DNA of 64,000 nucleotides, taken from positions 310,001 to 374,000 of the forward strand of contig JANXCF010000002.1 in assembly GCA_025059995.1 (NCBI GenBank), in the 5' to 3' direction. Below the pieces are notes generated by a model. It saw only the letters and a list, made by a program, of their open reading frames with translations, ran no database searches and was not told where the DNA came from. The stretch's first letter is position 1. The number at the start of each line of letters is the position of its first letter. Positions 22,567-64,000 of this stretch are shown here, piece after piece. Made by a program: the position numbers and the translations under genes. This stretch comes from Leptospiraceae bacterium. Lineage in GTDB: Bacteria; Spirochaetota; Leptospiria; Leptospirales; Leptonemataceae.

Positions 22567-23382
22567 TCACTCTTTAGGTATGGGAGTAATGTGAAAGACA
22601 CGTTGATTTTTCTCCCAGATGACGTATAAAACATTTTCTTTTTGCATGCGCAGTAATGTTTCAGCTAAAATGGCAGTGAATTGTCGTCTTAGGTTTCCTC
22701 CCATCAAATAACCTAACTCAACAATATCTTTTTTGCAAAGTTCTTGTATAAACCTTGAATAGTTTTCACAAAGAAAACTAAAATCGACATAGAATTCATC
22801 ATAAAAAATATCAATACTGATACCATAGGCATGAGTTGAATTTTCTATTGCATTCGGGTTTTTAAGTTTTAAAAGTTTTTGGTAATCAGCAGGTCTGAGA
22901 GCTGAAGAAATCGCCAACTTCACTTTTATAGGGTATGATTGAAAATTCAGAGTTTTTTGAAACTCTTCACCAATAAGAATGAGCACAGGATAGAATTTCC
23001 TATGAAAATAACGAAATTCATTAGGAACATTATAAAAAAAGTAATAGGTTCTTATGTCAGGATTTTCTAATGATTTAAAGTTATTTTGATTTAGTTCCTT
23101 GCTCGATCTGATGGAAGTAAGTTGATAATGATTTGCTAATTCGATATGATAAGGATAAAGATAAGTTCTTAAGGATTTCTTTTTTTCCTCATCAAGCCAG
23201 TCCTCAAAAATAGGAAAGTTTTGATATATGAATTGGTAAAACTCTTTGATAGCTAAATTTTTTGTTTTTGTGTAGCTACGGAGTTCTCTTTGTAATTTTA
23301 GTTTGGAATATAAGAGATATGCAATGACAATCGTTAAAATTGTGATAACAATCAAAAGAAAAAAGTTTTTTAAATTCTTCAT
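22567..23382 (-). CDS. Membrane-anchored M15-like (DUF5715-like) protein
   Basis: 271 aa. One N-terminal membrane helix (about 5-27) and an extracytoplasmic domain. The segment VKLAISSALRPADYQKLLK ... NSTHAYGISIDIFYDEF follows the SxHxxGxxxD metal-binding pattern of M15/VanY-type D-Ala-D-Ala peptidases and DUF5715. Peptidoglycan trimming is the best guess but unproven. Its ATG overlaps the stop of the sensor gene upstream by four bases (ATGA), so the two are translationally coupled. Confidence 0.6.
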   Translation of the reverse strand: MKNLKNFFLLIVITILTIVIAYLLYSKLKLQRELRSYTKTKNLAIKEFYQFIYQNFPIFEDWLDEEKKKSLRTYLYPYHIELANHYQLTSIRSSKELNQNNFKSLENPDIRTYYFFYNVPNEFRYFHRKFYPVLILIGEEFQKTLNFQSYPIKVKLAISSALRPADYQKLLKLKNPNAIENSTHAYGISIDIFYDEFYVDFSFLCENYSRFIQELCKKDIVELGYLMGGNLRRQFTAILAETLLRMQKENVLYVIWEKNQRVFHITPIPKE

Positions 23383-25613
23383 ATAGTTTTAGAAATTTTT
23401 TTTATGAGAGTGACAGAATTTCCTTTGCTATTGTAAACAATTCTATCAAAAGCATTCTTTGCAATGAAAATCCCACGACCATGAAGAGAGTCTAAATGGA
23501 TGTTCTTCTTTTCTAAGTATTTTTTTACATCAAAGCCATTCCCTTCATCGGTGATTTTATAGGCTACTTCTTTTGGGGTAAAACGATATTCCACAATCAC
23601 TTTTTTATTTTGATAATGAGGATCTCTTAATTTGTTTCTTAAATATTCATGATAGTTGCCTTTTTCTAAATATTTTTTCTTATCTTCGTAGGTAATTTCT
23701 AAGTTTCCATGTTCTATTGCATTGATTAAAATTTCTCGTAGTCCTACACGAATCATGCTTAGTTCTAATTCATCAATGAGTTCACTTAGTTCTTCTGTAA
23801 GCTTAGCTATGATATTATCTATCAAATAAATGTCTGTATTAAAAACAAAACTTGAATATTCCTTTGTTAAATATTGAAAGATTGGGTCTTTTTTAACTAA
23901 GGTTGCTCGAGCAAAAATTTCATCTACCTTGTTATTTCTAAAAATTTTTTCTAAGACAATATCAAATAACTTAAAGGGTATGTCATCATAAGACTTCAAA
24001 GGAACCTGGATTTTTAGAGTTTTACCATTTTCTATAAAGTTTTGGATTCTTTCAGTGTATAGATCAAGAACTTTACTTCTTTGGACGTCCTGATATATCA
24101 AAGAAAAAAAGCTTTTTTCTGTAAATTCATATTTTGGGATTTTTAGAATTTTCTCAAAACTATCACTTATTTCTATGATGTTTCCCTTTGGATCTAGGAT
24201 AAATAAAATATCAGATGTTTGATTGAAAATAAGCTTATACTTTTTTTCCGATAGTTTTATGATTTCATTGGCTTTTCTGAGTTTATTGATTTTTGCTTGA
24301 AGTTTTTTGTTCAAATTGGTAAGCTGATTGTTGAAGTCTAATAAATGAAAGATAACACGAATACCTGAGTGTATCATTAGCAGCGTAAATCCTATTTCCA
24401 TGTATTTGGGTCTTTGTAATTTTGTGATATACAAGATAATATCAAATATTGCAGGAATAAAAAGAAGTAATACATTAATTAAATGTGTAAAGCTTTCAGT
24501 AGAAATAGAAAATCGGAGCTTTGATAGAAAGTTTTCTTTTTTTGTTTGGTTTATTTCTTCTATAAGACTAATTGTATTAGAAATCGAAAGGACAGCCATT
24601 ATAATAGGAATAGTAGAAAGCCATAAAAGTTGTAAATCAAACAATGTATTATCAGGCAAAATTAAAATAAAAAAGAAAAATACGGTTCCGTGATAAAAAG
24701 AAATATCAAAAATCCACTTTTTCCAACTTTTTATTTTTTTTATTGAATGTTGGTAAGTTTTCACAAGCAAAGGGATGAGTAAATATAAAGTTAAAGATCG
24801 TATTCGAAAAACCAGATTATAATCAGAGATGACTTCAAGTTCATCAAAAAGGGAGGATCGTATAAAAAAGAAAATGGCAATAACAATAGAGAATAAACTG
24901 AAGTAAAGATGTTTTTTTTTTTCTTTACGTTTCAAGAAAATAGTTAAATAAAAAATCCCAATCAAAATAGAAAGATTAATAAAGAAAACTTGTAAATAAA
25001 TACGTTTTTGCTTAAAAAGGTCAATGAACTCATCGAAAAGATAGGGATTCCCAAAAAAAAAGCCTGTTTCTCGAGATAAAGGATCCCCTTTGATGTGAAT
25101 ACATAAAGTATTAGTTCCGATTTTGATTAAAGTCTTAGGGATTGGGATTATAACATCTTTGATATTAACTTGTTTTTCTTTGGATCTATCTACAATGAGT
25201 TCTTGATTCCAATAGATGGCATAATACTCTCCAATCTTAGCAAACAATATAGCAGGAGATTTCATTTTATCGTAATCACTTTCAGAAACGGGAACGTAAA
25301 AAAGAAAAGTGAAATCAAGAGGTGGAAGACTTCGAAGTTCGAAAAAATTTCTCTTTGGAATGTCCAAAACATCAGAAAAGTCTGGCACATGAATTTTTCG
25401 ATTCCCTACATTTGCTTCGATTTTGTAGAAACCTTGTGAAACTGCTTCTTCTTCACTCAATGTGCAATTTTCAATATGAAAACCTTTTTTGATATAAACA
25501 GGAAGTCCCGTAAGGTCAACAGGATAGGACATTAAACTTTTAGTTTTGTATATAACAAAAAAGACAATTAAAATAAATATTACTTTTGGATTAGTAAAAC
25601 TACTGTGCAGCAT
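23379..25613 (-). CDS. 7TMR-DISM sensor with PAS and RsbW-type kinase domain
   Basis: 744 aa. Signal segment, an extracytoplasmic 7TMR-DISM-like domain (about 35-200), seven membrane helices (about 205-425), a coiled-coil, a PAS domain (about 455-580; LIFNQTSDILFILDPKGNII) and a C-terminal HATPase. The HATPase is the serine-kinase/anti-sigma kind: N box VGLREILINAIEHGNLEI, then ITDEGNGFDVKKY and LHGRGIFIAKNAFDRI, with no histidine phosphorylation helix. It probably phosphorylates or binds a STAS partner in response to an envelope signal. The start overlaps ispF by 34 bases; an M15-like gene is coupled downstream. Confidence 0.8.
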   Translation of the reverse strand: MLHSSFTNPKVIFILIVFFVIYKTKSLMSYPVDLTGLPVYIKKGFHIENCTLSEEEAVSQGFYKIEANVGNRKIHVPDFSDVLDIPKRNFFELRSLPPLDFTFLFYVPVSESDYDKMKSPAILFAKIGEYYAIYWNQELIVDRSKEKQVNIKDVIIPIPKTLIKIGTNTLCIHIKGDPLSRETGFFFGNPYLFDEFIDLFKQKRIYLQVFFINLSILIGIFYLTIFLKRKEKKKHLYFSLFSIVIAIFFFIRSSLFDELEVISDYNLVFRIRSLTLYLLIPLLVKTYQHSIKKIKSWKKWIFDISFYHGTVFFFFILILPDNTLFDLQLLWLSTIPIIMAVLSISNTISLIEEINQTKKENFLSKLRFSISTESFTHLINVLLLFIPAIFDIILYITKLQRPKYMEIGFTLLMIHSGIRVIFHLLDFNNQLTNLNKKLQAKINKLRKANEIIKLSEKKYKLIFNQTSDILFILDPKGNIIEISDSFEKILKIPKYEFTEKSFFSLIYQDVQRSKVLDLYTERIQNFIENGKTLKIQVPLKSYDDIPFKLFDIVLEKIFRNNKVDEIFARATLVKKDPIFQYLTKEYSSFVFNTDIYLIDNIIAKLTEELSELIDELELSMIRVGLREILINAIEHGNLEITYEDKKKYLEKGNYHEYLRNKLRDPHYQNKKVIVEYRFTPKEVAYKITDEGNGFDVKKYLEKKNIHLDSLHGRGIFIAKNAFDRIVYNSKGNSVTLIKKISKTI

Positions 25614-26077
25614 GCTATTCCCTCACTTCTTCCTATAAAACCTAATTTTTCTGTGGTTGTTGCTTTTATAGCTATTTGACTTTTTGGGATTTGACAAAGT
25701 TCTGAAATTTTCTCGATGATTTTTTCTCTGAATGGTTTGATTTTAGGTTTCTCAGCCAGTAAAGTGATGTCTATGTTTCCGATCTCGAAGTTTTTTTCTT
25801 TCATAAGCTGTAGAGCGTGTTTTAAGATTATTTTCGAGTCTAGGTTTTTATTTTTCGAGTCGGTATCAGGAAAATGGATCCCTATATCAGTTTCCCCAAT
25901 AGCTCCCAAAATGGCATCAGAAAGAGAATGAAGAAGAATATCCCCATCGGAATGGGCAATGATACGATATTCAGAAGGAATTTCCACTCCTCCCAGACGT
26001 ATGAAATCAACTTGATTTGTTTTTTCTATTCGATGAACGTCAATCCCTTGTCCTATCCGAATTTGCATTAAATTCAA
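25580..26077 (-). CDS. ispF: 2-C-methyl-D-erythritol 2,4-cyclodiphosphate synthase
   Basis: 165 aa, full length. MEP (non-mevalonate) isoprenoid pathway enzyme. Metal ligands in GQGIDVHRI and IAHSDGDILLHSLSDAILGA, then GDIGIHFPDTD-like TDIGIHFPDTDSKNK, and the C-terminal KATTTEKLGFIGRSEGIA. First gene of a run with the sensor and M15-like genes. Confidence 0.96.
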   Translation of the reverse strand: MNLMQIRIGQGIDVHRIEKTNQVDFIRLGGVEIPSEYRIIAHSDGDILLHSLSDAILGAIGETDIGIHFPDTDSKNKNLDSKIILKHALQLMKEKNFEIGNIDITLLAEKPKIKPFREKIIEKISELCQIPKSQIAIKATTTEKLGFIGRSEGIACCTVVLLIQK

Positions 26078-59141: not shown

Positions 59142-59890
59142 TCAGAAATTCTCGAATATAAGTAAATAATTACGATGAATTTTTATTTGATTTTTTTTAT
59201 AAAATTTTTTTACTAATTCCATACCTTCTAGATTTAAAACTAACGAAAAGCTCAAAAATCTTCCATGATGACTCAAAGAAATAGGATATGAATTTCCTTG
59301 GTGATATAGTTTTGGTGGTAGATAAAAGTTATTCTCTGGGTCGAATTCTCTAATTACTTCAACATTTGCTTTGAATATTTCAAAAAATGTTTTTTGTATA
59401 TACTTTCTTATAAGATGGGATTGACTTTTATTTTGTTTTAATTCTGGGTCTGAAAGTTGTATGATCCATGAGCAAAAATAAATAAAGAATTCTTTTTTTT
59501 GATGTAGTTTTGATTCTGAAAGATAGTGGCTAATTGTTGTTAGAAAGTTTTTTTTTTATCGAGGTAAATGTAGTTTTTCAAAAAGAGATTTTGATATTTT
59601 GTAACTTCCATATTGGGTAAGACTTCATAATCTTTATATCGAAAACTATGTAAGTTCAATGTTCGTGATATGGCTTTGTAAGCAGACTCTTTAAGTGCCC
59701 AAATAGTCCACAAGAGAATTAATTTCTCATGTAATGGTTCAAGTGTAGAAAAAAAATGTTCTATTTCGTTTGGTGTGCCAATTTTTTGAATAAATCTTTG
59801 GTTAAGATGATCTAACGAAGTATCAGGATCTTCAAGATCAACAATATCATTACCAAACCAAACTTCATCGAGCGGAAGAAAAATATTCAT
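59142..59890 (-). pseudogene. 4'-phosphopantetheinyl transferase, frameshifted at an A10 tract
   Basis: The intact 5' part (start ATG 59890 preferred over 59911) has FGNDIVDLEDPD and LLWTIWALKESAYKAISR, the metal- and CoA-binding motifs of the Sfp/AcpS superfamily, but stops at 59540 after LDKKKTF. The stop lies just after ten A residues (minus strand, 59549-59558). Reading through with a one-base shift gives about 135 further residues ending at TGA 59144-59142. That tail contains ISLSHHGRFLSFSLVL, the expected third family motif. A full protein would be about 249 aa. The change is a sequencing or assembly indel, a real lesion, or programmed or phase-variable slippage. The enzyme would arm the ACP at 60653. 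Confidence 0.8.
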
Positions 59891-60611
59891 TTTCCATTCT
59901 GAGTAATTCATCCAAAATTTGTAGTGTTAGCTCTCTGTGGGCACGTATCCCTTTTTGTTGGGTCCTTGGTTCTAATAATTTGTATTGAATATAAAATTTT
60001 TGATCTTTTTCTGGAAATACTGATTTTTCTTTTTGTTTTTCACCTCGTAAATAAATCACTAATACCTTAGTATTGGGAACCTCATACAAAAGTTGCCCCA
60101 CTCCATAGTGTATTTGATCCTTCAAAATGCGACCTGTTGGACTTCGGGTTCCCTCAATGAAAATACATACAGGCTCATTTTTCTTGAGTAAGTATTTAAG
60201 TTTGTTCATTACGAGTTCTTTGTGTTCTTGTGTTCCATTTCTTTCAAAAAGAATACATTTGGTGAGATAAGCTATGATGCGAAACAAAAGATTCCTTTCT
60301 ACATTCTCTTTTGCTGGAATGTTCCAAGGGAAGGTTCGGAATCTTAAGGAATAAAAAATGCTTCCACCTAATGCCCAGGCTATGATTGCTGAGTCTATAA
60401 AAGTTAAATGGTTAGGACAAATGAGAATAGGTTCTTTTTTCTTATGAACTTCTCGATAGAACTTCCTGATTTTAGCTAATTCCGATATCTTATATTTTCT
60501 CACAAATCGAAAATAAAAAACAACCAAAATTGCAAGTATGGGGAATATGATATTACCAATCAGTTTTTGGATGTATAATTCCGTTTTTGCTTTTATTGAT
60601 AGCTTCTGCAC
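59865..60611 (-). CDS. PlsC-like acyltransferase
   Basis: 248 aa. One N-terminal membrane segment (about 17-35). Acyltransferase motif I ICPNHLTFIDSAIIAW (H-x4-D), motif III IFIEGTRSPTGRI, and LVIYLRGEK. Members of this LPLAT superfamily acylate lysophosphatidate or other lipid acceptors. Its place between an ACP and a PPTase in an acyl-building operon suggests it off-loads the product onto a lipid; the acceptor is unknown. Overlaps the PPTase start. Confidence 0.88.
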   Translation of the reverse strand: MQKLSIKAKTELYIQKLIGNIIFPILAILVVFYFRFVRKYKISELAKIRKFYREVHKKKEPILICPNHLTFIDSAIIAWALGGSIFYSLRFRTFPWNIPAKENVERNLLFRIIAYLTKCILFERNGTQEHKELVMNKLKYLLKKNEPVCIFIEGTRSPTGRILKDQIHYGVGQLLYEVPNTKVLVIYLRGEKQKEKSVFPEKDQKFYIQYKLLEPRTQQKGIRAHRELTLQILDELLRMENEYFSSAR

Positions 60612-60652: not shown

Positions 60653-60901
60653 TCAGCCAATTTTATTTTTGATGAGATCCACAGCAGCTCCCACAGTTTG
60701 GACTTTGTCTGCTTCAGAGTCGTCGATTTCAATGTTGAATTCATCTTCGAGAGCTAAGATGATATCGACCAGACGTGAAGAATTAATCTCTAAATCTTTT
60801 AGTAAATTTGTTTCCGAGGTTGCATTATTCAAAGCTTCTTTGTTTTTAGCATAGGGTCCTAAAATTTTTAGGACTTTTTCCATTATTTCTTTGTTATCCA
60901 T
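60653..60901 (-). CDS. Divergent acyl carrier protein
   Basis: 82 aa, acidic four-helix ACP. The attachment Ser is S41 in LKDLEINSSRLVDIILALED, where housekeeping ACPs read D-S-L; here it reads N-S-S. Helix 3 region NIEIDDSEADKVQTVGAAVD is typical of carrier proteins. The unusual recognition motif suggests a carrier dedicated to this operon and served by its own PPTase. SD AAAAGGAG is strong. Confidence 0.9.
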   Translation of the reverse strand: MDNKEIMEKVLKILGPYAKNKEALNNATSETNLLKDLEINSSRLVDIILALEDEFNIEIDDSEADKVQTVGAAVDLIKNKIG

Positions 60902-60937: not shown

Positions 60938-62218
60938 CTATCCTTCCCATTTTTTATAAATCACACAACCATTCACGTCTCCAAAACCAAAGCTTGCTTT
61001 TGCAAAAATCCGAACATCTTTGTAAATAGTTTCTCTTACTACCCTATGTTCGAAGGGTTTGATTTTTTCATGGATATCTTCGCAGTTAATAGAAGGATGC
61101 AAAAAGCCTTGTTCTAGTTGTAAAATCACTGCTACGGACTCAATACTTCCCGCTGCTCCCAAGGTATGTCCAATCAAGGATTTCGTCGATTGTATGTAAG
61201 GGAATTTCTCAGGTGGAAGTCCCAAAGCAACTGACCAGTTATTCACTTCGATGGGATCAGCCATCGTTGCCGTCAAGTGACCATTTATGGCATCTATCTC
61301 CTCGGGTTGTATACATGCTCTTTTCACAGCTTCACGAATACAAATCTGAACGGAAGTAGGATTGGGTGCGGTCATGCTTCCCCCCATTCGATGTCCACCA
61401 CAATTAAGGTATCCACCCAGTATTTCTGCGTAAATCCTTGCTCCTCGTTTTTGGGCATGCTCTAAGCTTTCTAATACTAAGATACCTGCACCAGAGCCAG
61501 GAACAAAACCAGCTGCACTCGCACTCATTGGACGAGAAGCTCGTTCTGGTTGATCGTTGTATTTAGAACTTAAAACCCTCATGGCATCAAAAGCGCCCCA
61601 AACATACTTAGAAGATGACTCGGCGCCTCCCGCCAACATGATTTCTGCATCCCCACGTTTTATCCTTTCATAAGACAATAAAATTGCTTCAGTTCCCGTA
61701 TTACAAGCACTGCTGTTGGAAAATGTGTTATTCCCTAAAGCTAACAAACCACTCAATTTCGCAGAAAGAGAACTCATCATGATTTGTTCAACCATAGTAG
61801 AACCTAATCTTCGCACTTTTCCAGAATCAATAAAAGGGATGACCTTTTCTGCTATCGTATCAATTCCTGAAAGTCCTAACCCAATTACGCAGCCAGCATC
61901 CCAATTTACATAATCTGATTTGGGATCAGGAACTTCAAATCCTGCGTCTTTCCATGCATCAATACCCGCAATCGAAGAAAGAATCATGATTTCATTCATG
62001 GCTAGCAATTCTTCTTCAGTAAAATACTTTTTTGCTTTTTCCTCTAAGATTTCTTTATCAATCCAGCCCCCCACTTGGCATCCAAATTTGAGTTCTTCTA
62101 ATTCTTTTCGAAATCGAATACCACTTTTTCCTTGCTTCAATGCTTGAGAAAACTCTTCTTTCCCATGACCATTGGATGTGATAACGCCGATTCCTGTAAT
62201 AACAACTCTTCTTTCCAT
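60938..62218 (-). CDS. Beta-ketoacyl-ACP synthase (FabF-like)
   Basis: 426 aa. Full thiolase-fold condensing enzyme. Catalytic Cys172 in NSSACNTGTEAIL, His314 in AINGHLTATMADPIEV, His351 in KSLIGHTLGAAGSIE (with Lys346), and a C-terminal FAKASFGFGDVNGC. The first His motif reads GHLTATMAD rather than the usual GTSTPL-type loop, placing it outside the housekeeping FabF/FabB core. Elongates acyl-ACP with malonyl-ACP by two carbons. Confidence 0.9.
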   Translation of the reverse strand: MERRVVITGIGVITSNGHGKEEFSQALKQGKSGIRFRKELEELKFGCQVGGWIDKEILEEKAKKYFTEEELLAMNEIMILSSIAGIDAWKDAGFEVPDPKSDYVNWDAGCVIGLGLSGIDTIAEKVIPFIDSGKVRRLGSTMVEQIMMSSLSAKLSGLLALGNNTFSNSSACNTGTEAILLSYERIKRGDAEIMLAGGAESSSKYVWGAFDAMRVLSSKYNDQPERASRPMSASAAGFVPGSGAGILVLESLEHAQKRGARIYAEILGGYLNCGGHRMGGSMTAPNPTSVQICIREAVKRACIQPEEIDAINGHLTATMADPIEVNNWSVALGLPPEKFPYIQSTKSLIGHTLGAAGSIESVAVILQLEQGFLHPSINCEDIHEKIKPFEHRVVRETIYKDVRIFAKASFGFGDVNGCVIYKKWEG

Positions 62219-62234
62219 GATCCACCTCTCTATT

Positions 62235-62684
62235 TTATGATATTGCTACTCCTGCAAGTTCACCTACAGCAACAAGGGTTCCTTCGGTTTTTTTTACTTC
62301 GACTTTTGATTTGATTTTATTTTTTCTGTGATAAATCAAATCCCCTCTGATAAAGATAGTCTCTTCGGGTAAAACCATGTTGATGAATTCCACAGTTGCT
62401 TCGGTGAACAAAGTTATTTTATCGACCGGTCGATTCTTTAACATTTCTAAGTAAATCCCTAAAGCAACGACTCCAGTTTGAGCCATAGTCTCAAGAATAA
62501 TTACACCAGGAGTGATGGGATTGTTCGGAAAATGACCATCGTAAAAATATTCATTTTTTTTGAAGGTGTATTTCCCTACAATATGCTTATCTGAAAGTTC
62601 TATGATGTCTTCTATGAAACGAAAGGGTGGTTTTTGAGGGATAGACTCTAGAATCTTTTTTTTGATTTCGAAATCAACCACCAT
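62235..62684 (-). CDS. Beta-hydroxyacyl-ACP dehydratase (FabZ-like)
   Basis: 149 aa. Hot-dog fold. Catalytic His in YFYDGHFPNNPITPG and Glu in VIILETMAQTGVVALG, as in FabZ. Dehydrates 3-hydroxyacyl-ACP to trans-2-enoyl-ACP. Overlaps the FabG gene by 11 bases and precedes the ketosynthase. Confidence 0.9.
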   Translation of the reverse strand: MVVDFEIKKKILESIPQKPPFRFIEDIIELSDKHIVGKYTFKKNEYFYDGHFPNNPITPGVIILETMAQTGVVALGIYLEMLKNRPVDKITLFTEATVEFINMVLPEETIFIRGDLIYHRKNKIKSKVEVKKTEGTLVAVGELAGVAIS

Positions 62685-63402
62685 ACATACCTCCGTTCAC
62701 GTGAATTACCGTTCCTGTGATATAACTACCTGATGTTGCTAAAAATCCCACAACTTCTGCGATTTCTTCTGGTTTTCCCATGCGTCCTAGAGGGATCTTT
62801 TCCAAGATTTTTTTCTTGTGCTCTTCTGGTAAATCTTTGGTCATATCAGTATCGATAAATCCTGGAGCTATAGAATTTACTAAAATTCCGTATTCTGCAA
62901 ATTCCATTGCTGCTGTTTTGGTGAAGTTATCAATTGCCGCTTTGGTCATGCCATAAATGGACTGGGTGGGATTTCCAGTGCTTCCGATGATGGATGAGAT
63001 GTTGATGATTCTTCCCGAACGATTGCGTATCATGAATCGAACAAGTCTTTTAGTTAAATACCAGACTGATCTCATATTCGTTGAAATGATTTTATCAAAT
63101 TCTTCCAATGATGCATTAAATATAGGATTATCTTTTACAAATCCTGCATTATTGACTAATACTTCCAGTGTCAATTTTGAATTTTTAATTTCGTCATAAA
63201 TTTTATCACAGCCTTCAATCGTAGAGATGTCTGCTTGAATGAGTAGTCCTTCACCTAATTCTTCTTTTAGGGTTTCAGCTTCCTTTTGAGAGGTGTGATA
63301 ATGAATTCCCACGAGAAAACCTTTTTTATAGAGCTCACGTGCAATCGCACGACCAATCCCTCTACTCGCTCCTGTTACTAAAGCTAATTTTTTTTCTGAC
63401 AT
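62674..63402 (-). CDS. fabG: 3-ketoacyl-ACP reductase (FabG-like)
   Basis: 242 aa. Short-chain dehydrogenase: cofactor motif VTGASRGIGRAIARELYKKG, NNAG in VLVNNAGFVKDNP, catalytic Ser-Tyr-Lys in INISSIIGSTGNP and SIYGMTKAAIDNF, and the C-terminal ITGTVIHVNGGMYGG. NADPH-dependent reduction of 3-ketoacyl-ACP. Eleven bases downstream of the FabA-like gene. Confidence 0.92.
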   Translation of the reverse strand: MSEKKLALVTGASRGIGRAIARELYKKGFLVGIHYHTSQKEAETLKEELGEGLLIQADISTIEGCDKIYDEIKNSKLTLEVLVNNAGFVKDNPIFNASLEEFDKIISTNMRSVWYLTKRLVRFMIRNRSGRIINISSIIGSTGNPTQSIYGMTKAAIDNFTKTAAMEFAEYGILVNSIAPGFIDTDMTKDLPEEHKKKILEKIPLGRMGKPEEIAEVVGFLATSGSYITGTVIHVNGGMYGG

Positions 63403-63413
63403 AAAACCTCCTG

Positions 63414-64000
63414 TTATTTTTTCAGTATCCCACCAATAGAATGTTGGGTAGGGAAGGGGTAATCTTTGTAAGATATGTTTTTAAAAATACCTACTCTAGC
63501 TTTTTCTATGCTATAAATGGGAGTTCCATCCACAAATAACTTTCCATCTGCGATGGCGATGGCGACCCCTTGTTCTCGTAATTCACTGTAACGAAGAATT
63601 TCAATCTCATAGCGTATGATTTTATTCCATGGACGAACTTGACCCTCGAATTCAATCTTCTCAGCTCCTAATGCTCTTCCAACTCCAATTGCACCATTGG
63701 TGCAAGAGTAAAAACCGATCAATTGCCAAATGGCATCTATTCCAAAAGAACCCGGCATAACTGGATCATCTCGGAAATGAAACTGAAAAAACCACTCATC
63801 AAGAAGAATATCTTTTTCAGCTATGATTTTTCCTTTTTTTCCCATTTTTTCAATCGATACGATTCTGTCTACTAACAAAAACGGCGGAGCTGGGAGCTTT
63901 GCTAATTCTCCTGGGGGATCTTCTATCAATTTCCCTAAAGAAAAAGCAATTAACTCCACTTTATCAAAATAAGTTCTTTGCAAAAATTCGTGATATTTCA
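63414..64000 (-). CDS. FabA-like dehydratase/isomerase (5' end beyond window)
   Basis: At least 195 aa. Closely follows FabA: GELAKLPAPPFLLVDRIV, the catalytic His in FQFHFRDDPVMPGSFG and Asp in GIDAIWQLIGFYS, and GRALGAEKIEFEGQV. A TTG at 63983 is in frame, but the frame stays open to the window edge (KYHEFLQRTYF), and the last two bases are TG, so an ATG at 64001 is likely. In proteobacteria FabA dehydrates and isomerises C10 intermediates to make unsaturated fatty acids with FabB. First visible gene of the operon. Confidence 0.9.
   Translation of the reverse strand, partial: KYHEFLQRTYFDKVELIAFSLGKLIEDPPGELAKLPAPPFLLVDRIVSIEKMGKKGKIIAEKDILLDEWFFQFHFRDDPVMPGSFGIDAIWQLIGFYSCTNGAIGVGRALGAEKIEFEGQVRPWNKIIRYEIEILRYSELREQGVAIAIADGKLFVDGTPIYSIEKARVGIFKNISYKDYPFPTQHSIGGILKK

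Follow-up and report, generated by a model that had tools for sequence, protein, structure and literature searches.

A 4'-phosphopantetheinyl transferase (PPTase) gene of the ACPS superfamily, 59911–59142 on the minus strand of the window (the whole 64 000-nt stretch of DNA analysed here), is a single gene with a frame break at a run of ten A's (A10). It is the last gene of a fatty-acid-type operon, the acyl carrier protein (ACP) of which, to judge from the operon, is its likely substrate (Table 1). We consider it moderately probable that the frameshift is real and lineage-specific, and that it is tolerated via slippage that would give some full-length product.

Table 1. The split PPTase gene, its motifs and its operon, in window positions; the last row gives two loci of another genome
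Feature	Position	Strand	Basis
First reading frame of PPTase gene	59540..59911	-	ORF, 123 aa before stop; Pfam ACPS 1.3e-10
A10 run on coding strand, frame break	59548..59557	-	sequence
Downstream PPTase part, -1 frame, 137 codons + stop	59142..59555	-	matches C-terminal part of intact copies
GNDIVD motif	59837..59854	-	G, N, D, D invariant in 14-row alignment
WALKESAYK motif	59675..59701	-	W, K, E, K invariant in 14-row alignment
SLSHHGRF motif	59256..59279	-	sequence; in all intact same-genus copies
PlsC-type acyltransferase, overlaps PPTase start	59865..60611	-	Pfam Acyltransferase
Acyl carrier protein	60653..60901	-	Pfam PP-binding
Beta-ketoacyl synthase	60938..62218	-	Pfam ketoacyl-synt
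FabA/FabZ-like dehydratase	62235..62684	-	Pfam FabA
FabG-like reductase	62674..63402	-	Pfam adh_short_C2
FabA-like protein, runs off window	63414..63998	-	Pfam FabA
ribD and cmoB splits of G001	L311 and L314

The interrupted frame and its intact relatives

The first frame starts with the ATG at 59911 (a further ATG is at 59890), reads through the A10 run and stops at the TAA 59542–59540. The first-pass annotation had put this stop 9 bases past the run; the end at 59540 is right, while the codon spans the sixth to eighth bases after the run. A second TAA, abutting the run, directly precedes the opening of the -1 frame at 59555, and this frame closes at the TGA 59144–59142, the two open frames overlapping only in the A10 run and a few flanking bases. 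The claim that a one-base shift opens some 135 residues, down to 59142, thus held: there are 137 codons with no further stop, and none of 20 000 base shuffles of the downstream stretch stayed open. As had also been said, the shifted frame carries SLSHHGRF, and the earlier PPTase motifs (GNDIVD and WALKESAYK) lie before the run, in a frame that scores 41.8 bits against Pfam ACPS (cut-off 25), which places it in the 4'-phosphopantetheinyl transferase superfamily.

Before SLSHHGRF the -1 frame contains no start codon; the first ATG, GTG or TTG lies inside the motif, and for this reason the C half was ruled out as a separate gene. An ordinary gene junction at the A10 run was ruled out as well.

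The downstream part alone matched no PPTase profile model, therefore the case for it rests on relatives. A search of 61 genomes found a PPTase match at E ≤0.01 in 16, including the source genome (G000). Each of three genomes of the same genus (G001, G002 and G003) has an intact single-frame PPTase of 241–252 aa, related to both halves, in the same gene order (ketoacyl synthase, ACP, acyltransferase, PPTase). Against these three proteins the -1 frame scored 187–250, compared with 31–43 for the other two frames and 68–79 for the best of 500 shuffles. Two checks named by the first-pass annotation, for an intact gene in close relatives and for a PPTase match of the shifted segment, therefore came out in favour of its claim.

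In a 14-row alignment, with the window's read-through product among the rows, 11 columns are invariant in the N part and five (R, P, H, H, G) in the C part; the interrupted copy retains all five. Its identity to the three intact copies is 53–57% before the run and 35–36% after it; among the intact copies the corresponding values are 51–62% and 28–47%. By these comparisons the downstream half is naturally less conserved, with the G000 copy in line with the intact ones. Since this half diverges no faster than the intact copies do, the break is either young or harmless.

One could argue that the gene is a young pseudogene, i.e. that a genuine break leaves the cell without full-length enzyme and another PPTase serves the operon's ACP. 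G000 does have an intact second PPTase gene, of AcpS type (C3:161023), which leaves room for plain loss and so counts against slippage; besides, the tract is private to G000, as no run of at least nine A's is present at the PPTase site in the three same-genus copies. However, neither an extra stop nor the loss of an invariant residue is seen in the 137 codons, the divergence is not accelerated, and similar breaks occur in other conserved genes (see below); we regard a young pseudogene as quite unlikely. Because it is private to G000, the PPTase tract does not count as a conserved programmed site in its own right.

Order of the PPTase halves and predicted fold

Sfp-type PPTases carry their SHS motif ahead of the DIE and KEA motifs, on the N-terminal side. 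The description of the gene as an 'Sfp-type PPTase' is correct as to PPTase; 'Sfp-type' is inexact, as the motif order here is the opposite, with the catalytic half first and SHHG last, an AcpS-like order. Of 80 loci from named genomes, KEA and SHHG share one open frame in 44, with KEA first in every case; 35 of the remaining 36 have a close variant of the SHHG motif, mostly SLSHDGRF, and one is truncated. With the AcpS equivalog model TIGR00516 the score was 18.7 bits, below the cut-off of 59.8.

The structure predicted for the intact G002 PPTase (L103 6007–6756) has a mean pLDDT of 91. Its residues 7–128 can be aligned with AcpS as well as with the half of Sfp-type enzymes that is C-terminal and catalytic, the Z score of the predicted N half against AcpS being about 13. 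The C half alone gave a weak Z of 4.5 against AcpS and 3.5 against the N-terminal half of PptAb; it had no strong fold match, the top Foldseek matches being unrelated. A sequence search of solved structures with the PPTase returned nothing convincing (AcpS at E 0.86). The key motifs and the predicted N-half fold are in common with AcpS and Sfp-type PPTases (PDB 1f7l, 7bcz, 7b4r); compared with AcpS, however, the protein is longer (about 250 aa) and has an extra C-terminal half with SLSH(H/D)GRF. The family looks like a two-half one in which the catalytic half leads, opposite to Sfp; we offer this half swap as a suggestion, because the C half is weakly matched to known folds.

By alignment, the A10 break falls in the turn between strands 106–114 and 118–125 of the G002 model. 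The final strand of the catalytic half and all of the SHHG half would be absent from the 123-aa product, which is probably inactive.

A10 runs at frame breaks in four genomes

A whole-genome pattern search for exact A10 found 47 runs in G000, 160 in G001, 41 in G002 and 36 in G003. The G001 number is well above the 36–47 of the other three; the stretches fetched from G001 have 27% GC. We classified 194 of the 284 runs (all those of G000, G002 and G003, and 70 of 160 in G001): 90 were in intact coding frames (74 with A and 16 with T on the coding strand), 86 were noncoding or close to an edge, and the script classed 18 as split; these classes are approximate, since coding was judged by a simple score of codon usage, for which a 464-kb sample served as training set. 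Upon reading, five of the 18 (L087, L307, L238, L251 and L279) were dropped as gene starts or junctions, and so was L291, an A11 run at the start of a ribosomal protein L28-like gene. The 13 retained breaks, 11 with homology support and two without, all have A on the coding strand. In the 464-kb sample 22 A9 runs were in intact frames and none was at a split; a sample of 20 × 20 kb had no A10 run against about eight expected, and the A10 census draws on the whole-genome search instead of this sample.

Breaks were retained in the PPTase, amidohydrolase and dnaX genes of G000; in ribD and cmoB of G001 (among the 70 runs classified); in a glycosyltransferase-like gene (GT), a kinase-like gene, recN and two unsupported loci (L226 and L236) of G002; and in the same GT gene, the same kinase-like gene and uppS of G003. 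No relative of L226 was found in the other three genomes.

The flanks of A10 in the amidohydrolase gene (L066 1712–2925, G000:C1, near 323505) are almost identical to those of the PPTase site, and its C part is found within intact frames of 396–419 aa in G001, G002 and G003. In dnaX (L099 1777–3263, G000:C8, near 14482) the conserved C-terminal motif lies in the -1 frame, and 0 of 1000 shuffles reached the score of the C-terminal piece against each of five relatives; the A10 site is absent from the three same-genus relatives. The two uppS pieces (L255 1147–1879, G003:C3) correspond to positions 1–111 and 111–219 of Prenyltransf. This normally essential gene has one match per genome, unbroken in G000, G001 and G002; the sole G003 match is split at A10. 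The cmoB pieces match one model at 68–115 and 117–312, the recN C part (L248) matches its model from position 173 of 563, and each end of RibD is matched by one ribD piece, weakly so by the second. For the kinase-like gene, the C part of which has no Pfam match, support comes from conservation in two species.

The shift has the same direction in nine of the 11 distinct split genes; seven of the nine homology-backed genes shift by -1, with recN and uppS opposite. Neither direction (p 0.065), strand (0.21) nor length (0.095) was significant in these statistics.

Two of the sites are shared between species. In the GT gene an exact A10 with the same -1 shift is present in G002 (L239), G003 (L252) and G001 (L297), where the upstream proteins are 45–71% identical. 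Beyond the run the frame encodes a hydrophobic tail; in G008, from another genus of the family, the protein is in one frame of 589 aa whose C-terminal tail is hydrophobic too, and the ortholog in G000 ends without an A10 run. No profile model matched the GT gene, its name being our reading of the sequence. For the single pair G002–G003, with dS above 1, dN/dS is 0.11 before the run and 0.38 after it. Also in the kinase-like gene (L249, L263) the A10 and shift are identical between G002 and G003; for this single pair (dS again above 1) dN/dS is 0.31 ahead of the run and 0.23 beyond it. Conservation of a run among homologs is taken in PMC1088944 as a mark of purposeful slippage; it is seen in the GT gene and is missing in the PPTase, of which the three same-genus copies are intact. 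A break kept across species, with a second frame that appears to be constrained, is hard to explain by sequencing error.

If the PPTase tract were of another length and had been miscalled in sequencing or assembly, the gene would be intact and nothing unusual would need explanation. The titled genomes of the genus are MAGs, an essential gene (uppS) appears broken, and the common direction in nine of 11 genes is what undercalled longer tracts would give. Against a miscall, G000 has 19 of its 47 A10 runs in intact frames (14 A-sense and five T-sense) as well as two A11 runs, so that runs of A10 and more seem to have been called correctly for the most part. Also, the GT site reads as ten A's in three separate MAGs, one of them probably a PacBio HiFi assembly, judging by its name and PMC9671151. 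We think a miscall unlikely.

Alternatively, replication slippage at A10 could toggle the PPTase between cells, the assembly having captured the off state. Poly-A is prone to replication slippage (PMC3711429); however, A10 runs are present in many genes of the genus, housekeeping genes included, and relatives have no such run at the PPTase site. Phase variation is therefore very improbable.

Slippage and known systems

What makes tolerance by slippage likelier is that other genes of the genus have A10 breaks, one of them kept in three species; the pattern is genus-wide in conserved genes, single-copy uppS included. As in poly-A slippage genes, a long A run sits at the frame junction of the PPTase. 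The interruption would then be real DNA, tolerated because A10 is slippery. The slipping enzyme would most likely be RNA polymerase, producing transcripts with a varying number of A's, of which a minority would encode the full two-half PPTase and the others the 123-aa product; the PPTase gene would be weakly productive rather than dead.

The bypass could instead be a -1 ribosomal frameshift on A_AAA_AAA. This heptamer, named in PMC3711429, is in the right phase within the PPTase run, and the -1 direction of seven of nine homology-backed genes fits. Yet neither the PPTase site nor 13 others showed a Shine-Dalgarno-like sequence near the run; L226 has one AGGA, 25 bases upstream of it. Downstream folding was unremarkable too, bar a marginal structure at the G003 GT site. 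The PPTase scan covered local elements within 25 bases upstream and 70 downstream, pseudoknots apart. Moreover, recN and uppS need the other direction. With no stimulator seen in these stretches and two genes shifting the opposite way, slippage of RNA polymerase, for which the run alone suffices, looks to us likelier than a stimulated ribosomal shift, although neither point proves it; we consider the ribosomal shift rather improbable.

Frameshifts of this kind are already known, and the PPTase is a new case. In Blochmannia and Buchnera, poly-A tract frameshifts in genes are corrected by transcriptional slippage (PMC3017870, PMC5009743), with 12–50% of transcripts corrected (PMC5009743), and in Citrobacter rodentium tssM frameshifting is 20–25% (PMC4256274). 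The endosymbionts resemble our case in being AT-rich, with single indels in long A runs of otherwise intact genes, dnaX included, some common to species; they differ as reduced insect endosymbionts with RNA evidence, whereas here the genomes are of 2.3–3.4 Mb and known from DNA alone. In tssM, too, the gene is interrupted after a poly-A run and the downstream part is in another frame, but the run is A11, the evidence includes mass spectrometry and reporters, and both products are needed. Runs of 9–10 A's are described for dnaX of Thermus thermophilus and for ten-A two-ORF dnaX genes in PMC1088944 and PMC3711429; G000 dnaX likewise has A10 at its break, though these systems concern a gene other than PPTase and the G000 dnaX site is not shared within the genus. 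Among the titles and partial texts surveyed, nothing on point came up for slippage in Leptospira or spirochetes, and titles and abstract openings gave no PPTase frameshift in a homopolymer.

New beyond the split PPTase are the genus-wide A10 breaks in conserved genes and one conserved site. One could speculate that in this genus of Leptospirae, the genomes of which have not shrunk to endosymbiont size, poly-A slippage is a permanent level of gene expression, breaks being tolerated even in essential genes, with the GT site programmed across three species to give a soluble and a membrane-tailed form, and with the PPTase break recent; we put this forward, as a whole, quite tentatively. If bypass is real, many genes of this lineage that look broken in AT-rich drafts would be functional and their annotation as pseudogenes wrong, and the phenomenon would extend beyond insect endosymbionts and take in a lineage whose genomes are of ordinary size. 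Slippage bypass can be tested directly at the conserved GT site. What bypass would mean for the PPTase is modest: a dedicated carrier-protein activator, probably at low level.

Elsewhere in the window a sensor-kinase-like frame of 748 codons (23379–25622, minus strand) stays intact across an eleven-T run (24912–24922), which reads A11 on its coding strand.
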